A DNA stretch of 64,000 nt from Dactylosporangium aurantiacum. GTDB taxonomy: Bacteria > Actinomycetota > Actinomycetes > Mycobacteriales > Micromonosporaceae. The notes beneath the pieces are model-generated. The model was not told the origin of the DNA. It saw nothing but the letters and a program-made list of their open reading frames with translations, and searched no databases. Below are positions 5,702 through 33,368 of the stretch, one piece after another (positions within the stretch are counted from its first letter, which is position 1; the number at the start of each line of letters is the position of its first letter). Made by a program: the position numbers and the translations under genes. Location of the stretch: assembly GCF_000716715.1 (NCBI RefSeq), contig NZ_JNYJ01000043.1, positions 124,001 to 188,000 on the forward strand, written 5' to 3'.

Positions 5702-6955
5702 TCAGACACCCGCGGTGGCCGCCGGGTGCAGTCGCTGGTGCCAGGCCGTCGCGGACAGGTCGGTGAGGCTGGCGACCTGGTCGATGACGACCCGCAGCCG
5801 GGCCGCGTCGTCGGGGGCGGCCCGCCACATCGGGGCGAAGACCGCGTCGAGGCCGTCGGGGGCGCGGTCGGCGAGCGCCGCGACGAGCTCCGTCAGGATG
5901 GTGATCTCCTGCGCGTAGCGCTGTTCCGAGCCCGGGCGGCGCATCACGTACCGCAGCGCCATGCCCTTCAGCAGCGCGCACTGCGCCCGCACGGCCGGCG
6001 GGACGAGCAGGTCCGCCGCGTAGCGCCGCACGGGCGCGCCGCCGTGCACGGCCCGGGTCGCGGACACGGCCGCCGCGGCGAACCGGCCGGTGAGCACGCT
6101 CGTCACCCGCTTCAGGGCGACCTGCGCGGCGTGGCTGCCGTCGTAGTGGTCCAGCGGCGCCAGGACCGGGTCGGCGAGCAGGTCGAGCAGCACCGCCTCC
6201 AGGTCGGCGGCGGACTCGGTGGAGTAGGCGGCGGCGACGTCCCGGCACAGCGCGGCCCGCTCGCCGGCGTCGGCGCGCAGCGCGGCCAGGTGCACGTAGC
6301 CGCCGTGGATGCCGTCCTCGACGTCGTGCACGGAGTACGCCACGTCGTCGGCCCAGTCCATGACCTGCGCCTCCAGGCACCGCGCGTCGTCGGCGCGCCC
6401 GTCGCGCAGCCAGGCGAAGACGGCGGCGTCGTCGTCGTACACGCCGAACTTGCGGCTGCCGGCGCGGCGCGGCCAGGGGTACTTCGACACGGCGTCCAGC
6501 GACGCGCGGGTGAGGTTGAGCCCGGCGGAGGTGCCGTCCTCCGCCAGGACCTTCGCCTCCAGCCGGGTCAGCACCCGCAGGGTCTGCGCGTTGCCCTCGA
6601 AGCCGCCGCACGGCTGGGCGACCGCGTCGAGCGCGTCCTCGCCGTTGTGCCCGAACGGCGGGTGGCCGAGGTCGTGGGCGAGCCCGGCGGTGTCCACGAC
6701 GTCGGGGTCGCAGCCGAGGCGGGCGCCCATCTCCCGGCTGAGCTGCGCCACCTCCAGCGAGTGGGTGAGCCGGGTGCGCAGGAACGCGTCGGCGCCGGCG
6801 GTGTGCACCTGGGTCTTGGCGGCCAGGCGGCGGAAACCGGCGGAGTGCAGGACCCGGGCCCGGTCGCGCTGGAACGGGGTGCGGCCGTTGTCGGCGGTGG
6901 TCGTGGTGCGGTCCTTCTGCGGCTCGTGCACGAAGCGTTCCGCGTCCGGGTTCAC
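5702..6955 (-). CDS. dgt: Deoxyguanosinetriphosphate triphosphohydrolase-like protein (HD domain)
   Basis: A 417-residue dNTP triphosphohydrolase that cleaves dGTP or other dNTPs to the nucleoside and triphosphate, controlling dNTP pools. The HD-domain metal ligands are visible as RTRLTHSLEVAQ, LAHDLGHPPFGHNGE, and the later WADDVAYSVHDVEDG. The N-terminal RDRARVLHSAGFRRLAAKTQV segment is typical of the bacterial family. The gene starts with a four-base overlap with the AI-2E-type permease upstream, so the two are translationally coupled. A dgt gene near dusB, ppdK and glyS is usual in actinobacteria. Confidence 0.92.
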   Translation of the reverse strand: MNPDAERFVHEPQKDRTTTTADNGRTPFQRDRARVLHSAGFRRLAAKTQVHTAGADAFLRTRLTHSLEVAQLSREMGARLGCDPDVVDTAGLAHDLGHPPFGHNGEDALDAVAQPCGGFEGNAQTLRVLTRLEAKVLAEDGTSAGLNLTRASLDAVSKYPWPRRAGSRKFGVYDDDAAVFAWLRDGRADDARCLEAQVMDWADDVAYSVHDVEDGIHGGYVHLAALRADAGERAALCRDVAAAYSTESAADLEAVLLDLLADPVLAPLDHYDGSHAAQVALKRVTSVLTGRFAAAAVSATRAVHGGAPVRRYAADLLVPPAVRAQCALLKGMALRYVMRRPGSEQRYAQEITILTELVAALADRAPDGLDAVFAPMWRAAPDDAARLRVVIDQVASLTDLSATAWHQRLHPAATAGV

Positions 6956-8109
6956 GCTTCGAGCTTAGAGGTCTCGCCCGGCTCCAGATCCCGTGGCGCG
7001 GGAAGATCCCGCGCCGCGGGCGGGATCGGCACCGGCGGCTCGGCGGGCGGGTCCCGCTCCGCGGGTGGCTCGTTGAGCGCCTCGACCATCGGGGTCATGA
7101 GCACCTTGACCGCCGCCACGACCGGGATCGCCATGAGCGCGCCGACGACGCCGAGGATCGCGCCGCCGACGAGCGCGGCGAGCAGCACCGCGATCGAGGA
7201 CAGGTCGACGGTGTTGCGCAGCACGCGCGGGGCGATCAGGTAGTTCTCCAGCTGCTGGTACAGCAGGAAGAACACGGCCACGACGACGGCGGTGGGCCAC
7301 AGGTCGCCGGTCACCAGCGCCACGACGGTGCAGCCGACCGCGCCGACGGTCGCGCCGATGAGCGGGATGAGGTCGGTGACCGCGACGAAGAACGCCAGCG
7401 GCAGCGCGAACGGCACGTCCAGCAGGAAGAGGCAGACGAACGACGACACGCCGGCGAACAGCGAGATGATCAGGTTGCCGATCATGTACCCGCCGACCTT
7501 GTCGACGACCACGTTGATCGCCTGCGCGGCGCGGGGCCGGCCCTGGCGGGGCACCAGCCGCACGATGCCGCGGCGGACGCGGGGCAGGTCCGCCATGAAG
7601 TAGATCGTGAGCACGGTGACCAGCAGGACGTTGAGCAAGGCGCTGAAGATGCCGGTGAGGACGCCGAGCGCGCCGCCACCGACCTTGGCCGGCAGGGTCT
7701 TGGCGTACTCGGTGAGCTTCTCCGTCAGCCCGTAGCGGTCGGCCACCTCGCGGTAGGTCTGCGAGCGTTCGGGCAGCTCCTGCAGGTACTGCGGGATGTT
7801 GCGCAGCAGGTCGCCGCCCTGGCCGACCAGCGGCGGGACCATCGACCAGACGAACCCGGCGAGCACCAGCAGGGCGAGGACCACGATCACGGCGACCGCG
7901 ACCGAACGGCGCACCCCGCGGCGGATCAGCAGCCGCACCGCGGGGTCGAGGCTGACCGCGACGAAGACGGCGATGATCACCTGCACGAGGATCTGCCGGA
8001 CGGTGTACAGCGCGAACGCGCCGGCGGCGACGGTGAGCAGGCCCAGCCCGGCGGCGACGGCCCACCGGTACGCCCGCCCGAAGTCGGTGCCACCCCCCGG
8101 ACTGGTCAT
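6952..8109 (-). CDS. AI-2E family transporter (PerM/YdiK-like)
   Basis: A 385-residue membrane protein with about eight hydrophobic segments, the usual topology of the AI-2E transporter family (N-terminal pair, central soluble stretch, then a C-terminal block with IPLIGATVGAVGC and the QQLENYLIAPRVL motif). Some members export autoinducer-2, while others act in ion or osmotic homeostasis; the substrate here is unknown. The C-terminal tail is rich in Pro, Glu and Asp and probably cytosolic. The ATG at 8109 lies inside an 89-bp repeat that supplies its GGAGG ribosome binding site, and it overlaps the stop codon of a 30-residue micro-ORF. It is coupled at its end to dgt. Confidence 0.88.
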   Translation of the reverse strand: MTSPGGGTDFGRAYRWAVAAGLGLLTVAAGAFALYTVRQILVQVIIAVFVAVSLDPAVRLLIRRGVRRSVAVAVIVVLALLVLAGFVWSMVPPLVGQGGDLLRNIPQYLQELPERSQTYREVADRYGLTEKLTEYAKTLPAKVGGGALGVLTGIFSALLNVLLVTVLTIYFMADLPRVRRGIVRLVPRQGRPRAAQAINVVVDKVGGYMIGNLIISLFAGVSSFVCLFLLDVPFALPLAFFVAVTDLIPLIGATVGAVGCTVVALVTGDLWPTAVVVAVFFLLYQQLENYLIAPRVLRNTVDLSSIAVLLAALVGGAILGVVGALMAIPVVAAVKVLMTPMVEALNEPPAERDPPAEPPVPIPPAARDLPAPRDLEPGETSKLEA

Positions 8110-8198
8110 GCCGTCGCCTCCGCTGCGCTCCGGCGCCGTCCTGACCTGAACCCTGCGCCCATGATGACCGGCCCTCCGCTGCGCTCCGGACCGGTCAT
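8106..8198 (-). CDS. 30-residue micro-ORF, copy 2, coupled to the AI-2E permease
   Basis: An ATG at 8198 opens 30 codons reading MTGPERSGGP... and ending in FRSGRRRSAAEATA, closed by a TGA that overlaps the permease ATG (ATGA). A GGAGG lies 7 bases upstream of the start. It differs from copy 1 by one synonymous base (a Ser codon). The basic, Arg-rich C-terminus is shared with the micro-ORFs between znuC and znuB. Whether the peptide is stable, or only its translation matters, cannot be told. Too short for standard gene callers. Confidence 0.5.
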   Translation of the reverse strand: MTGPERSGGPVIMGAGFRSGRRRSAAEATA

Positions 8199-8287
8199 GC
8201 CGTCGCCTCCGCTGCGCTCCGGCGCCGTCCCGACCTGAACCCTGCGCCCATGATGACCGGCCCTCCGCTGCGCTCCGGACCGGTCAT
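8195..8287 (-). CDS. 30-residue micro-ORF, copy 1, downstream of the VOC gene
   Basis: The first copy of the micro-ORF starts at an ATG at 8287, seven bases after the stop of the VOC gene, and ends in a TGA overlapping the ATG of copy 2 (ATGA). It has no ribosome binding site of its own. Reinitiation after the VOC gene would therefore be needed to start the chain VOC, micro-ORF, micro-ORF, permease, dgt. The protein is identical to copy 2. Confidence 0.45.
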   Translation of the reverse strand: MTGPERSGGPVIMGAGFRSGRRRSAAEATA

Positions 8288-8294
8288 GCCGGCG

Positions 8295-8648
8295 TCATTC
8301 GCGGGTCCGCAGGATGCAGAACTCGTTGCCCTCCGGGTCGGCGAGGACGACCCAGGCGGCGTCGTCAGGCTGGCCGACGTCCACGTGGCGGGCGCCCATG
8401 TTGACCAGACGCTCCAGCTCGGCGTCCAGGTCGTCGGGGCGCAGGTCGAGGTGGAGGCGGTTCTTGGCGTGCTTGGCGTCGGCGTGGCGCAGGAAGATCA
8501 GCCGCGGCTGACCCTCGAGGCCGGAGCCGACCACGACCTCCTGCGGCGACACGCGCTCCACCCGGTGGTCGAGCACCTCCGCCCACCACCGGCCGAGCCG
8601 CTCGGGGTCGAGCGCGTCGACGATCAAGGCATCCCACCGGCTCCCCAT
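8295..8648 (-). CDS. VOC (glyoxalase/bleomycin-resistance fold) family protein
   Basis: A 117-residue single-domain VOC protein (WDALIVDALDPERLGRWWAEVL... ending in VVLADPEGNEFCIL). The fold pairs beta-alpha-beta-beta-beta units and often binds a divalent metal. Members include glyoxalases, dioxygenases and drug-binding proteins, and this small actinobacterial subgroup has no assigned substrate. The motif NRLHLDLRPDDLDAELERL and the C-terminal Glu-containing strand are typical. It is the first gene of a run leading through the micro-ORF cassettes to the AI-2E permease and dgt. Confidence 0.8.
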   Translation of the reverse strand: MGSRWDALIVDALDPERLGRWWAEVLDHRVERVSPQEVVVGSGLEGQPRLIFLRHADAKHAKNRLHLDLRPDDLDAELERLVNMGARHVDVGQPDDAAWVVLADPEGNEFCILRTRE

Positions 8649-20553: not shown

Positions 20554-21558
20554 TCAGTCGGTGGCGGTCGCGGCGGCGCCGAACACCCACGGCGTGGTCT
20601 GCTCGATGAAGTCCGTCGGGAAGCCGGCCTTGAACGCCGTCGCCTCCTCCAGCCGCGCGACCAGCTCCGCGGGCAGCTCGACGGCGAGCGCGCCGAGGTT
20701 GTCGGTGAGCTGGTCGAGGGAGCGCGCGCCGACGATCGGGTGCACGGCCCGCGACCGGACCCTGGTCCACGCGAGCGCGACCTGCGCCGGGGTCACGCCG
20801 AGCTCGTCGGCGACGCCCTGCACCGCCCGGGCCACGGCCAGGTCGTGCTCGGAGATCGACGCCGGGTCGAGCCGCCGGGTCGGTGAGCTGCCACCGGTGT
20901 ACTTGCCGGAGAGGACCCCGTTGCCGAGCGGGCTCCACGCGGCGACGGTCATCCCGAACGCCTCCGCCATCGGCAGCAGCTCCCGCTCGATGTCGCGGTT
21001 GAGCAGGCTGTACGGCACCTGCAGCCCGGCGAACGCGGTCCAGCCGCGCCACTGCGCGAGCGTGTTGGCCCGCGACACCACCCACGCCGGCGCGTCGGAG
21101 ATGCCGATGTGCAGCACCTTGCCGGAGCGCACCGCGTCGTCGAGGGCCCGCATCGTCTCCTCGACCGGGGTGTGCCGGTCCCAGATGTGCACCCAGTACA
21201 CGTCGAGGTGGTCGGTGCGCAGCCGGCGCAGGCTCGTCTCCAGCGACAGCCGCAGGTTCTTGCGGTGGTTGCCGCCGCCGTTGGGGTCGGCCGCGTCGCG
21301 GGTCACGCTGTACTTCGTGGCCAGCACGAACCGGTCCCGCCGGCCCTGCAGCAGCTCGCCGAGGATCTCCTCGCTGGCGCCGCCGCGGTAGTTGATCGCG
21401 GTGTCGAGCACGTTGCCGCCGGCGTCGGCGTACGCGTCGAGGATCCTGGCGCACTCCTGCAGCGGCGCGCCGACACCGCCCTGCTCACCGAATGTCATCG
21501 CGCCCAGGAACAGCTCTGACACGCGCAGCCCCGTCTGCCCCAGCGTGCGGTACCGCAT
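20554..21558 (-). CDS. Aldo/keto reductase family protein
   Basis: A 334-residue NADPH-dependent oxidoreductase. The beta/alpha barrel motifs are MRYRTLGQTGLRVSELFLGAMTFG, VLDTAINYRGGASEEILG with the catalytic Tyr, FVLATKYSV with the catalytic Lys, and the cofactor-binding end HPIVGARSLDQLTDNL. This subgroup (voltage-gated-potassium-channel-beta-like or YajO-like) reduces aldehydes and ketones. The ATG at 21558 is chosen because the fold starts there. It follows the sigma factor operon on the same strand after a 72-base gap. Confidence 0.92.
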   Translation of the reverse strand: MRYRTLGQTGLRVSELFLGAMTFGEQGGVGAPLQECARILDAYADAGGNVLDTAINYRGGASEEILGELLQGRRDRFVLATKYSVTRDAADPNGGGNHRKNLRLSLETSLRRLRTDHLDVYWVHIWDRHTPVEETMRALDDAVRSGKVLHIGISDAPAWVVSRANTLAQWRGWTAFAGLQVPYSLLNRDIERELLPMAEAFGMTVAAWSPLGNGVLSGKYTGGSSPTRRLDPASISEHDLAVARAVQGVADELGVTPAQVALAWTRVRSRAVHPIVGARSLDQLTDNLGALAVELPAELVARLEEATAFKAGFPTDFIEQTTPWVFGAAATATD

Positions 21559-24946: not shown

Positions 24947-25047
24947 CGCTCTCCCCCATCGACGCGCACACCGTACACCTCGCCGCCGCTTCCCACGGGG
25001 CACGGTCGACGCCCACGACCTATGGCCCTCGGCCCGGCGAAACCACC

Positions 25048-25133
25048 GCAACGCACGGCAACGCGAGACCACGCACGGCAACGCAAGGCAACGCGAGACA
25101 ACGCACGGCAACGCGAGACCGCGCACGGCAACC
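25048..25133. repeat. Decamer-based tandem repeat block
   Basis: About nine 10-bp units of the pattern ACGC(A/G)NGGCA or ACGCGAGACC occur head to tail, often alternating as ACGCACGGCA-ACGCGAGACC. The block lies in the 360-bp gap between the YcxB-like gene and the histidine phosphatase gene. No gene or known site is apparent in it. Confidence 0.8.
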
Positions 25134-25177
25134 GGGTGCGGCCCGCGGCCCTGGGCGCAGCCGACGCCCCGCGTGCG

Positions 25178-25280
25178 ACCCCCGCCCCACGTCCGACCCC
25201 GCCCCACGTCCGACCCCGCCCCACGCGCGACCGCGCCCCACGCGCGACCGCGCCCCACGCGCGACCGCGCCCCGGGCGCA
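25178..25280. repeat. 17-bp tandem repeat block
   Basis: Six tandem units of about 17 bp, ACCCCGCCCCACGTCCG changing gradually to ACCGCGCCCCACGCGCG, occupy the rest of the same intergenic gap, next to the 3' end of the phosphatase gene. There are no spacers, so it is a minisatellite rather than a CRISPR array. Confidence 0.85.
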
Positions 25281-26038: not shown

Positions 26039-26995
26039 CTACGACTCGTACTGCTCGGCGGGGGCCTCGATCAACGTGATCTCGGCAACCTCGATGAACG
26101 GGATGGTCTCGCCGTTGACGGTGTCCTTCACCTGCCGGCCCGTGTAGCTGCCGGTGACCCGCAGCCACTGCTCGTCGGCGAGACCGTCGGGCAGCTGCCC
26201 CGCCAGGGCGACCTTGACCGGCCGGGCGTCGGCGGCGCAGCAGCTGACCATCATGCGCGCCATCAGCCAGGTGTCCTCGGGCCCGCGCATCGCGAACCCG
26301 GTCAGCTCGACCCGGCGCTGCCCGAGCGACGTCCCGCGGTCGAACACCGCCCGCGACGCGTAGTCCAGCATGGTCAGCTTCACCGGGTCGCCGGCCGGCA
26401 GCGGCGCGAAGTCCGACTTCTCGACCAGCGCCGACCCGGCCCGCCCGGCCGCATACGACCCGAGCGCCGGCGGCGCCACCAGCAGCAGCCCGAACACCGG
26501 CGCGAGCAGCAGCCACGCCACCCTCGGCCCGCCGGCCCCGTGCCCGTGCCCGTCGTCGTCCGCGCCCGCGTGCCCGTGCCCGTCGTCGCCGCCGGCGGCC
26601 CCGTGCCCGTGCCCGTCGTCGCCCCCGCCGGCATGCCCGTGCCCGTCGCCCCCGGCCGCGTGCGCGAGCGCTCCGGCCGGCAGGAGCTCCCGCCCGTCCC
26701 GCGCCCCGTCACCGTCGACCGGTCCACCGTCGACCGGTCCACCGTCGACCGACCCACCGTCGACCGACCCACCGCCGACCGTGCCACCGGTCACACCACC
26801 GGTCGCGGCCGGTCGGGCCGGGCGCAGCTCGAACCACAACGAGAACAGCCCCGCGACCACCAGAATCGCCCCGGACAGGATCAGATACGGCTGCAACCCC
26901 GGCTTGACGTAGTTGAGGTACTGGTCGGTGAGGCTGGCCCGCAGGACCGCGCCACCGACGAGCAGGAGGATGACCGCCTGCGCCTGCCTGTTCAC
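26039..26995 (-). CDS. TIGR03943 family protein (YcgQ-like), with a His-rich loop
   Basis: A 318-residue membrane-associated protein with two N-terminal hydrophobic helices (AVILLLVGGAVLRA and LILSGAILVVAGLFSLW), a long central loop, a third helix (VAWLLLAPVFGLLLVAPPALG) and a C-terminal soluble domain with a GFAMRG... MMVSCCAADARPVKV motif. TIGR03943 proteins pair with UPF0718 permeases (B. subtilis YcgQ/YcgR). The loop holds repeated GG(S/P)VDGG units and then four DDGHGH-type units, which should bind Zn, Ni or Cu. The GTG at 26995 overlaps the permease stop (GTGA). Confidence 0.85.
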   Translation of the reverse strand: MNRQAQAVILLLVGGAVLRASLTDQYLNYVKPGLQPYLILSGAILVVAGLFSLWFELRPARPAATGGVTGGTVGGGSVDGGSVDGGPVDGGPVDGDGARDGRELLPAGALAHAAGGDGHGHAGGGDDGHGHGAAGGDDGHGHAGADDDGHGHGAGGPRVAWLLLAPVFGLLLVAPPALGSYAAGRAGSALVEKSDFAPLPAGDPVKLTMLDYASRAVFDRGTSLGQRRVELTGFAMRGPEDTWLMARMMVSCCAADARPVKVALAGQLPDGLADEQWLRVTGSYTGRQVKDTVNGETIPFIEVAEITLIEAPAEQYES

Positions 26996-31227: not shown

Positions 31228-31983
31228 GTGGTACTTGAGGTGGACCGGGCCGTCGTCGCCTACGACGGCCGCCCCGTGCTCGACGGCGTGTCGCTGCGCG
31301 TCGACCCGGCGGAGGTCGTGGCGATCCTCGGCGCGAACGGGTCCGGCAAGTCCACCCTGGTGAAGTCCGCGCTGGGTCTGGTACCCCTCGCGCAGGGCGA
31401 GGTCCGGCTCTTCGGCACCCCCTTGCGACGCTTCCGCGCCTGGCACCGGCTCGGCTACGTCCCGCAGCGCGTCGGCGCCGGCAGCGGCGTGCCCGCCACG
31501 GTCGGCGAGGTCGTGGCCGAGGGCCGGCTCGCCCGCCGGGGGTTCCTGCGCCTGCCGTCGAGCGCCGACCGGCGCGCGGTCGAGGAGGCGCTCACCGCCG
31601 TCGGCCTCGCCGACCGGGCCCGCGAGCCGGTGTCGGTGCTGTCCGGCGGGCAGCAGCAGCGGGTCCTCATCGCCCGCGCCCTCGCCGGCGCGCCCGAGCT
31701 GCTGGTCCTCGACGAGCCGACGGCCGGCGTGGACGCCGCGAGCCAGGAGGCGTTCGCCGGGTGCCTGGGCCGGTTCGTCGGCCAGGGCGGCACCGTGGTC
31801 TTCGTCGCGCACGAGCTGGGCCCGCTGCGCCCCCTGATCACCCGCGCGGTCGTCGTGCACCACGGCGAGATCATCCACGACGGCGCGCCCCCGGAGCCGG
31901 CCGGCCACCACGCCGAGCCGGACCACGACCACGTCCACCCCCACGCCGCCGTCGAGGCGCCCGGCCTCCTGGGCAACGCATGA
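31228..31983 (+). CDS. znuC: Zinc-type ABC transporter ATP-binding protein
   Basis: A 251-residue ABC ATPase with Walker A GANGSGKST, signature LSGGQQQRVLIARAL and Walker B LLVLDEPTAG. It belongs to the family of ZnuC/MntB-like ATPases for Zn, Mn or Fe import. The C-terminus has a His-rich tail (HHAEPDHDHVHPHA), typical for zinc. It is followed by two micro-ORFs and then the permease gene, all joined by ATGA overlaps. No substrate-binding protein gene is next to it. The GTG at 31228 is used because it lies just after the Zur-like box and before the first conserved strand. Confidence 0.9.
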   Translation: MVLEVDRAVVAYDGRPVLDGVSLRVDPAEVVAILGANGSGKSTLVKSALGLVPLAQGEVRLFGTPLRRFRAWHRLGYVPQRVGAGSGVPATVGEVVAEGRLARRGFLRLPSSADRRAVEEALTAVGLADRAREPVSVLSGGQQQRVLIARALAGAPELLVLDEPTAGVDAASQEAFAGCLGRFVGQGGTVVFVAHELGPLRPLITRAVVVHHGEIIHDGAPPEPAGHHAEPDHDHVHPHAAVEAPGLLGNA

Positions 31984-32072
31984 GCGGCCCGCAGCGGAGC
32001 GAGGAGCCGCGAATCAGCAGCTCAGGGTGGAGCTCAGGCCGGCGCCGCAGCGCAGCGGAGGTGACGGCATGA
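31980..32072 (+). CDS. 30-residue micro-ORF, copy 1, coupled to znuC
   Basis: An ATG at 31980 overlaps the znuC stop (ATGA) and opens 30 codons: MSGPQRSEEP..., with a GWSSGRRRSAAEVTA end. Its TGA overlaps the ATG of the next copy. It has no recognisable domain. Its frame, length, overlaps and C-terminal Arg-rich motif match the micro-ORFs at 8106-8287. Whether the peptide itself matters is unknown. Confidence 0.5.
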   Translation: MSGPQRSEEPRISSSGWSSGRRRSAAEVTA

Positions 32073-32157
32073 GCGGCCCGCAGCACAGCGGAGGGCTGCG
32101 AATCGACAGCTCAGGGTGGAGCTCAGGCCGGCGCCGGAGCGCAGCGGAGGTGACGGC
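31980..32157 (+). repeat. Two tandem 89-bp cassettes (locus B of the micro-ORF repeat family)
   Basis: Two units of exactly 89 bp, 31980-32068 and 32069-32157, separate znuC from the permease gene. Their second halves are nearly identical (CTCAGGGTGGAGCTCAGGCC, GCAGCGGAGGTGACGGC) while the first halves differ at several places. Each unit ends in GGAGG-7 bases-ATGA. The unit aligns without gaps to the cassette at 8104-8281 (about 70% identical by eye), including the 3' block GGAGCGCAGCGGAGG. Confidence 0.9.
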
Positions 32158-32161
32158 ATGA
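32069..32161 (+). CDS. 30-residue micro-ORF, copy 2, coupled to znuB
   Basis: The second copy reads MSGPQHSGGLRIDSSG..., with the same GRRRSAAEVTA end, and its TGA overlaps the permease ATG at 32158. A GGAGG lies 7 bases before its own ATG. It is identical to the locus A peptide at 19 of 30 positions without a gap, with conservative changes (Phe/Trp, Ala/Val) among the rest. Confidence 0.5.
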   Translation: MSGPQHSGGLRIDSSGWSSGRRRSAAEVTA

Positions 32162-33051
32162 GCTTATTTACGTACGACTTCATGATCCGGGCCCTGATCG
32201 GGGCGCTGATCACCGGCGCGTCGGCGCCCGCCATCGGCATCTACCTGGTGCAGCGCCGGCTGTCGCTGATCGGTGACGGTCTCGGTCACGTGGCGCTCAC
32301 CGGTGTCGGCTTCGGCCTGCTGCTGCACCAGTCGCCGGTGTTCATGGCGGTCATCGCCGCCGCGCTCGGCGCCGTCGTCATCGAGCTGGTCCGCGAGCGC
32401 GGCAGGACCTCCGGCGACGTCGCCCTCGCCATGCTGTTCTACGGCGGCATCTCCGGCGGCGTGGTCCTGGTCAACCTGTCCGACGAGCAGAGCAACCGCA
32501 GTCTCGTCACGTACCTGTTCGGCTCGCCGCTCACGACGAGCCGGCAGGACCTGACGGTGATGCTCATCCTCGGCTGCGCGGTGCTCGCGGTGGCGGTCCT
32601 GCTCCGCCCGTGGCTCTTCGCGGTCTGCCACGACGAGGAGTACGCGCGCGTCTCCGGCCTGCCGGTCCGCGCCCTCAACCTCGTCCTCGCCGTGACGACC
32701 GCGGTCACGGTCACGGTCGCCATGCGGGCCGTCGGCCTGCTGCTGGTCAGCGCCCTGATGGTGGTGCCGGTCGCGACCGCGCAGCAGATCACCCGCGGCT
32801 TCCGCACCACGATGCTGGTCGCGGTGCTGCTCGGGCTGGCCGCCTCCGGCGGCGGCATCTGGGTCTCGACCGCCGCCGACACCGGCCCGGGCGCGACCGT
32901 GGTCCTGCTCGCCATCGGCGGCTTCTTCGCCGTCACCGTCGGCGTCTCGGCGTGGAAGGCGGTGCGGCGCCGCCGTACCGGACCACCACCGCCGGTCGCG
33001 GACCGCACTACGCCCGAGGTGGTGCTCGACCGTGTGGACCATGGTTACTGA
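32158..33051 (+). CDS. znuB: Zinc-type ABC transporter permease (ABC-3 family)
   Basis: A 297-residue membrane protein with about eight helices and the ABC-3 permease landmarks: ALITGASAPAIGIYLVQRRLSLIGDGLGHVALTGVGFGLLL, the FGSPLTTSRQDL loop and VGLLLVSALMVVPVATAQQITRGF. It forms the channel for ZnuC. The ATG at 32158 has an ideal GGAGG supplied by the repeat cassette. The family imports Zn or Mn; zinc is favoured because of the neighbours. Confidence 0.92.
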   Translation: MSLFTYDFMIRALIGALITGASAPAIGIYLVQRRLSLIGDGLGHVALTGVGFGLLLHQSPVFMAVIAAALGAVVIELVRERGRTSGDVALAMLFYGGISGGVVLVNLSDEQSNRSLVTYLFGSPLTTSRQDLTVMLILGCAVLAVAVLLRPWLFAVCHDEEYARVSGLPVRALNLVLAVTTAVTVTVAMRAVGLLLVSALMVVPVATAQQITRGFRTTMLVAVLLGLAASGGGIWVSTAADTGPGATVVLLAIGGFFAVTVGVSAWKAVRRRRTGPPPPVADRTTPEVVLDRVDHGY

Positions 33052-33071: not shown

Positions 33072-33368
33072 ATGTCGAGCATTGAGGGTTACGAGGCGGC
33101 CGGCGAGCTGTTGCGTGCCCTCGCCGCCCCGCTGCGCATCCGCATCGTGACCGAGCTGGCCGGCGGTCCCCGCTGCGTGCACGAGCTCGTCGACACGCTC
33201 GGCGCCCCGCAGCCGCTCGTGTCGCAGCACCTGCGTGTCCTGCGCGGCGCCGGTGTGGTGCGCGGCTCCCGGCGGGGGCGGGAGATCGCGTACGCGCTCA
33301 CCGACGACCACATCGCGCACATCGTCGCCGACGCCGTCTCCCACGCCCGCGAGGCCGGCGGCTCCTGA
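33072..33368 (+). CDS. ArsR/SmtB-family metalloregulator with a zinc-sensing alpha5 site
   Basis: A 98-residue winged helix repressor (LRALAAPLRIRIVTELAGGPRCVHELVDTLGAPQPLVSQHLRVLRGAGVVRGSRRGREIAYAL). Its last helix reads DDHIAHIVADAVSHARE, an exact DxH-x10-HxxE pattern, the alpha5 zinc site of SmtB/CzrA-type sensors. Its place after glyS and the zinc transporter matches SmtB (Rv2358) of M. tuberculosis, which is followed there by zur. No Fur-type zur gene follows here. It probably represses its own operon and lets go of DNA when zinc binds. Confidence 0.88.
   Translation: MSSIEGYEAAGELLRALAAPLRIRIVTELAGGPRCVHELVDTLGAPQPLVSQHLRVLRGAGVVRGSRRGREIAYALTDDHIAHIVADAVSHAREAGGS

Follow-up and report, generated by a model that had tools for sequence, protein, structure and literature searches.

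A short cassette that lies in tandem between znuC- and znuB-like genes of Dactylosporangium aurantiacum is dispersed through the genome at RTGA junctions that are empty in relatives, and most of its arrays end in a unit with an internal arm matched to the start of the gene downstream. The reading that we favour, with some reserve, is that this is a non-autonomous dispersed cassette of the Micromonosporaceae, similar in design to the mycobacterial interspersed repetitive units (MIRUs; PMC12548453, PMC3914561, PMC2734929), which inserts at RTGA sites and serves as a translation relay, so that the downstream gene stays coupled.

Two cassette units between znuC and znuB

In the window, by which we mean the whole 64,000-nucleotide stretch of DNA analysed, two direct repeats separate znuC from znuB. 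They are 89 bp each and 90% identical (repeat-search register 31978-32155), and the locus is arranged as follows.

31228..31983, + strand: ABC transporter ATPase (ZnuC-like), upstream gene (PF00005, E 9e-29, and sequence; start codon putative)
31980..32068, + strand: cassette unit 1, 89 bp (direct repeat)
31980..32072, + strand: micro-ORF 1, MSGPQRSEEPRISSSGWSSGRRRSAAEVTA and a stop, 30 codons (sequence; open frame)
32069..32157, + strand: cassette unit 2, 89 bp (direct repeat)
32069..32161, + strand: micro-ORF 2, MSGPQHSGGLRIDSSGWSSGRRRSAAEVTA and a stop, 30 codons (sequence; open frame)
32069..32103, + strand: left hairpin H1 of unit 2, interrupted in this unit's subfamily (pair counts in 64 89-mers)
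32121..32163, + strand: right hairpin H2, with arm GCTCAGGCCGGCGCC, loop GGAGCGCAGCGGA and arm GGTGACGGCATGAGC (family covariation)
32146..32150, + strand: GGAGG, ribosome-binding site for znuB (sequence)
32158..33051, + strand: ABC-3 permease (ZnuB-like), downstream gene (PF00950, E 1.9e-61; congeners)

The TGA of the znuC stop codon (31981-31983) overlaps the ATG of unit 1, and a chain of ATGA junctions runs from znuC through micro-ORF 1 and micro-ORF 2 to znuB (ATG at 32158), each micro-ORF starting on the preceding stop and stopping on the following start. In both units 7 nt separate GGAGG from the next ATG. The sequence-only reading of this locus had described the two 89-bp units, their 30-codon ORFs and ATGA overlaps, and the GGAGG that each unit brings to the next ATG; all of this was verified, at matching coordinates. 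The start codon and second codon of znuB lie within the 3' arm of H2, and the H2 43-mer has a computed fold of -22.6 kcal/mol at this locus. Immediately 3' of the permease gene is an ArsR-family regulator (HTH_5; window 33072-33368).

The second locus, near 8 kb on the minus strand, holds two 89-bp copies that are 98% identical (repeat-search register 8097-8274); the array ends on the ATG (8109) of an AI-2E transporter gene. In gene order, the features are:

8295..8648, - strand: glyoxalase-like gene, upstream, with its stop 7 nt before the first unit (PF18029, E 2.4e-28)
8199..8287, - strand: cassette unit, first in gene order (direct repeat)
8110..8198, - strand: cassette unit adjoining the AI-2E transporter start (direct repeat)
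6952..8109, - strand: AI-2E family transporter gene, downstream (PF01594, E 4.2e-63)

The assignment of this locus to the same family stands for the two copies and for their junction with the transporter start; the left ATGA overlap is absent, since the first unit starts 7 nt past the glyoxalase-like stop. A search for MITE-type terminal inverted repeats found no inverted pair of 12 nt or longer around the znu units, whose ends are direct RTGA, and two 12-nt inverted pairs at the 8-kb locus, partly outside the units; the internal H2 falls below the criteria of that search. Elsewhere in the window, 25044-25273 and 26527-26789 hold dense short tandem repeats of 15-63 bp.

A family dispersed at start codons

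The genome (11.44 Mb) contains 138 exact copies of a 15-base core, or 268 with at most one mismatch, and 132 exact ends in which the core is followed by 7 nt and RTGA; the reversed core pattern has 0 copies. The 132 exact ends rule out a chance local duplication. For a census of arrays we took the first 100 places listed by the core search with at most one mismatch (contigs C1-C43), 400 kb of C1 and the window, which amount to 758 kb in 56 segments. From 114 candidate ends, excluding those without the 7-nt spacing, we obtained 107 units in 68 arrays of one to four units each. We number positions so that 1 is the R of the left RTGA and 90 the R of the right RTGA.

In 61 of the 68 arrays the right end coincides with the start codon of an ORF that has 90 or more codons and a GC3 of 0.88 or above; 615 of 1743 random RTGA sites meet the same description. 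Of the 60 arrays with a resolvable left end, 47 have it on the stop codon of a long ORF upstream (in 8 arrays it could not be set). The counts of copies and of positions relative to gene starts that the sequence-only reading had proposed thus reveal a family far beyond two loci, most of whose sampled arrays end on an ORF start.

Unit length is 89 bp in 64 of 99 measured units and 33-151 bp in the others; the distances of 143 and 151 may each span one unrecognised unit, and the unit at C9:56256 was measured as 65 bp but is more likely to be one of 33 bp. Inside arrays, 30 of 39 end-to-end steps are 3n-1. With first units added the figures are 3n-1 in 80 of 99, 3n in 14 and 3n+1 in 5, the 80 being an upper figure: where more than one left RTGA could be chosen, the rule for left ends favoured 89 and the other 3n-1 lengths, and eight first units were unmeasurable. 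The register is broken in at least 19 of the 99 units. A strict 3n-1 rule is therefore ruled out by the inside-array steps, and the idea that unit size always keeps the overlap register gives way to a tendency. The 33-bp units, which bring the left start into frame with the downstream gene, would have arisen when the two cores of a single unit recombined.

Distribution and empty junctions in relatives

Exact cores occur in 85 of the 354 genomes of the Micromonosporaceae: in all 7 genomes of the genus, which have from 17 to 138 each, and in 78 of the other 347, mostly at few copies. The extended pattern of core and RTGA was found in none of the 393 other sampled genomes of the class (394 including our own), a set made up of 391 from other families and 2 further members of this family. 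Named records with the extended pattern come from Dactylosporangium, Actinoplanes and Catenuloplanes (at least 67 stretches), a list of taxa that is a lower bound. The Actinoplanes units are typically 77 bp, with the same right half and a different left half.

The znuC-znuB junction is readable in four of the six congeners, and none of the four carries the element. An exact ATGAGC overlap is present in two of the four; the plain overlap (...GCATGAGC...) is found in G104 and G106, G105 reads GTGACGTGAGC, and G107 has a short gap with no RTGA start. For a wider comparison, 57 of the 68 arrays qualified, and every second one was taken, giving 28 downstream-gene queries; relatives with both flanks existed for 23 of these and for 5 there were none. 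At all 23 comparable loci at least one of three congeners has an RTGA junction without the element, as called by core search and reading by eye, so that relatives lacking the insert do show the target site, a check that the sequence-only reading had called for. In the reverse direction, 10 insertions of D. siamense yielded 7 with an orthologous gene in our genome, of which 4 are empty and 3 carry units; the remaining 3 queries had no match here.

The junctions are not uniform. At pieces 13, 16, 20 and 27 some relatives carry a different cassette subtype at the same junction; at piece 27, G104 carries a unit and G102 is empty, and at pieces 2 and 22 the G104 junction holds other, unrelated-looking sequence. 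Junction types vary as well: at piece 6 the relative's ATGAGA is also our own right end, and at pieces 0 and 25 our right RTGAS differs at R or S from each empty relative read. At some loci the element itself, rather than the host, seems to have brought the right RTGAS, so that part of the arm match is internal to the element. At pieces 23 and 24 the upstream gene seems to have lost its end. In the latter (own C38, about 21115-21204) the upstream gene is joined to the interior of a unit, the gene end and the first part of the unit being apparently deleted, and this junction is possibly an element-linked deletion.

Several orthologous loci hold other inserts. At L108 (G104), the orthologue of our C1:387332, where our genome has a cassette unit, the same upstream stop is followed by another kind of insert, about 96 bp long, with a palindrome of its own (GATGTCGG ... 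CCGACAT). L153, L118, L106 (G106) and L171-L173 carry other cassette subtypes with different arms at start codons, for example CATGCGGCC ... CGCATG in L106, and reading by eye suggests that the start codon may again lie within a hairpin. Similarly, L128, the orthologue of our C15:48246, has a tandem array of units beginning ATGACCGCCGGAGCGCAGCGGAGG at the junction where our genome has an 89-bp pair.

An internal arm matched to the downstream start

In the right hairpin, positions 53-67 pair with 81-95 around a loop at 68-80. Within its 3' arm lie the start codon (90-92) and bases from the second codon. The arm, recognised by TCA or TCG at 55-57, is present in 57 of our 68 terminal units and absent in 11. 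Positions 54 and 94 are Watson-Crick partners in 53 of the 57 arm-bearing units (3000 shuffles: mean 25.6, maximum 38), by way of all four pair types (CG 30, GC 19, TA 3, AT 1), whereas base 54 matches other partners in 18-25 of 57. Over all 68 terminal units, with or without the arm, the count is 57 (2000 shuffles: mean 32.6, maximum 46). In other genomes the arm is present in 65 of 76 terminal units, and 61 of the 65 pair 54 with 94 (shuffle mean 45.0, maximum 52). The pairing is weaker in units inside arrays (29 of 39; shuffle mean 21.0, maximum 29). Because related units inflate shuffle tests, we also used disjoint contrasts between nearest relatives differing at 94, and both members are complementary in 22 of 25 such pairs. 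This match between arm and downstream start was missed by the sequence-only reading and looks new.

Elsewhere in the stem, 58-90 and 60-88 covary in both the own and the other-genome sets, 53-95 is weak and 63-85 is unpaired. Cells with G-T outnumber those with A-C by 80 to 5 in our own units (47 of the 80 come from one fixed pair) and by 104 to 33 in other genomes (57 of the 104 and 29 of the 33 come from one pair each), as expected of a fold in the sense strand. Mutual information is highest for 54-94 (0.88), but non-pairing columns come near (0.86 and 0.85) through relatedness, and we therefore relied on the pairing tests instead. In the left hairpin, 5-31 pairs in 53 of 64 89-mers (shuffle mean 31.7, maximum 43) and 1-35 in 51 of 64 (shuffle mean 45.1, maximum 50); since 3-33 and 4-32 pair rarely (24 and 17 of 64), this hairpin is interrupted in many units.

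The 43-mer fold has a mean z of -1.69 against mononucleotide shuffles and lies below -2 in 33 of 68. The computed chance of an unpaired start codon is 0.42 in cassettes and 0.41 at 64 ordinary ATGA/GTGA overlaps, which is no difference, whereas fold energy does differ (-32.6 in cassettes against -29.4 at ordinary overlaps, p 0.003). The proposition that the start codon is hidden more than usual, and with it any extra occlusion, is therefore unsupported.

The micro-ORF

Across positions 36-52 we counted 182 synonymous and 448 non-synonymous differences where 163 and 467 were expected, which is near neutral; over the whole micro-ORF the counts are 560 and 1010 against 418 and 1152 expected, a mild non-synonymous deficit, so there may be some constraint on the peptide. 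The micro-ORF frame is open in 63 of 63 distinct 89-mers, which says little alone, since a second frame is open in 58 of the 63. The earlier view that the peptide itself is conserved is not borne out by this codon substitution pattern, and a functional peptide as the main constraint is disfavoured. With the middle near neutral and no more than a mild deficit overall, a delivery role is likelier than one for the peptide.

Discussion

How could an insert on a start codon leave an operon working? The cassette holds every part that a translation relay needs. Its insertion target would be RTGA, that is, a start codon beginning RTGA that often overlaps the stop of the preceding gene. A ribosome ending the upstream gene would re-initiate on the micro-ORF and, while translating it, would open the sense-strand hairpin that pairs the internal arm with the downstream start codon. 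It would then stop at the TGA that overlies this start codon, where it would re-initiate with GGAGG 7 nt upstream. In this way the operon would stay coupled despite the insert, and there would be a limit on uncoupled initiation at the ribosome-binding site that the cassette brings in. Transcription, translation, coupling and occlusion are the parts of this scheme that we infer. The original suggestion of a portable element at ATGA junctions has fared well: the cassette is dispersed at ATGA/GTGA junctions of which relatives show the empty form, it carries a ribosome-binding site, and its linkage of ORFs fits coupled translation. More tentatively, in a mobile cassette of this kind the internal arm may be matched by base pairing to the start and second codons of each gene entered, with the pairing either choosing the insertion site or being tuned later to hide the start. 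In both cases the cassette, if this is true, would belong to a class of elements that fit start codons with custom translational control.

MIRUs, reportedly the subject of Supply et al. in 1997, are widely used for strain typing. As described in extracts of two papers, they are dispersed repeats of 46-101 bp at 41 loci of strain H37Rv (PMC3914561) that are inserted at start codons, contain an ORF coupled at -4 nt, and are thought to be mobile with little effect on expression (PMC12548453). By these descriptions the cassette is MIRU-like in its start-codon placement, ORF, overlap, size and tandem variation. In one genome, 64 of 99 units are 89 bp, with others from 33 bp, in arrays of one to four; 61 of 68 arrays sit on ORF starts, 23 of 23 comparable junctions are empty in a relative, and 30 of 39 steps keep the -4 register. 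The claim that no described family has such properties is accordingly wrong, since the cassette has the design of mycobacterial MIRUs. Two differences remain: the hosts of MIRUs are mycobacterial, whereas the cassette pattern is absent from the 393 other sampled genomes of the class, and the extracts do not mention a start-matching hairpin. We therefore call the cassette MIRU-like and not a MIRU, a likeness drawn by description. No printed precedent outside mycobacteria was found in the open-licence literature searched. Similarly, the excerpted account of the SAS/ESAS of cluster K mycobacteriophages describes 13-bp repeats a few bases before start codons, with a Shine-Dalgarno core and in some cases inverted repeats, for which the authors saw little support for an mRNA hairpin (PMC3203893). 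These resemble the cassette as near-start repeats with a Shine-Dalgarno core and differ in belonging to phage genomes, in their 13-bp size and in having, in that account, no micro-ORF or tandem units. Their 13-mer GGGATAGGAGCCC is absent from the unit columns, which hold GGAGCGCAGCGGAGG (a by-eye comparison of unit columns alone).

Could the hairpin arms instead serve movement? Hairpins are found in the short dispersed repeats known as REP/RAYT and in those derived from IS200/IS605, in which guide and target pair, and IS200/IS605 elements have guide sequences that pair with the target in single-stranded DNA; the cassette differs from these repeats in its placement on start codons. By analogy, the internal arm would be a guide that pairs with RTGASC in single-stranded DNA, so that each subfamily enters only matching start codons. 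The right end does have its guide, hairpin and target arranged in the same order as the right ends of IS605; among 43 last units with a left RTGA at 89 bp, left and right agree in R in 40 and in S in 34; and the left 5-31 pair covaries too. Nevertheless we think this unlikely. Junctions within RTGASC vary. Moreover, the Y1 transposase family PF01797 was found neither in our genome (98.9% complete; 0 members) nor in 5 of 6 congeners, so that the genus shows it in 1 of its 7 genomes; the same search was positive in 5 of 14 control genomes. Rivals that invoke a Y1 transposase thus lose ground, and HUH/RAYT mobilisation by a resident enzyme is unsupported; another enzyme class, or an enzyme since lost, may be the mover.

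A mutational by-product, in which template switching during replication corrects an imperfect palindrome by copying the start-codon side into the arm, would account for rare starts that are matched (ATGAGA with TCTCA, ATGAGT with ACTCA, GTGATC with GATCA and three AAC starts with GTTCA). Mismatches in the same stem should also be mended by such copying, yet they persist in our units (G/A at 58-90 in 35 of 57 and at 63-85 in 41 of 57), and other rare starts are unmatched: ATGAAG keeps C at 54, and GTGAGA, GTGAGG and two ATGACG keep G at 53. We regard this origin as improbable. That start codons tolerate the cassette as a selfish or neutral repeat, its micro-ORF and hairpin being without effect on expression, agrees with the near-neutral middle of the peptide, with the loss of frame in at least 19 of 99 units and with the unchanged start-codon accessibility. 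It is very unlikely in view of the pairing with the downstream start, which is kept in our own and other genomes and in the nearest-relative contrasts.

Finally, in the MIRU literature, as far as its excerpts go, the function of MIRUs and their way of moving are unsettled. A large family of MIRU design in soil bacteria, with occupied and empty junctions and a covarying hairpin, makes two questions testable: is coupling preserved, and what moves the cassette? The translation relay proposed here suggests how a parasite-like repeat settles in operons without breaking them, and it might supply a ready-made coupling module for engineering.
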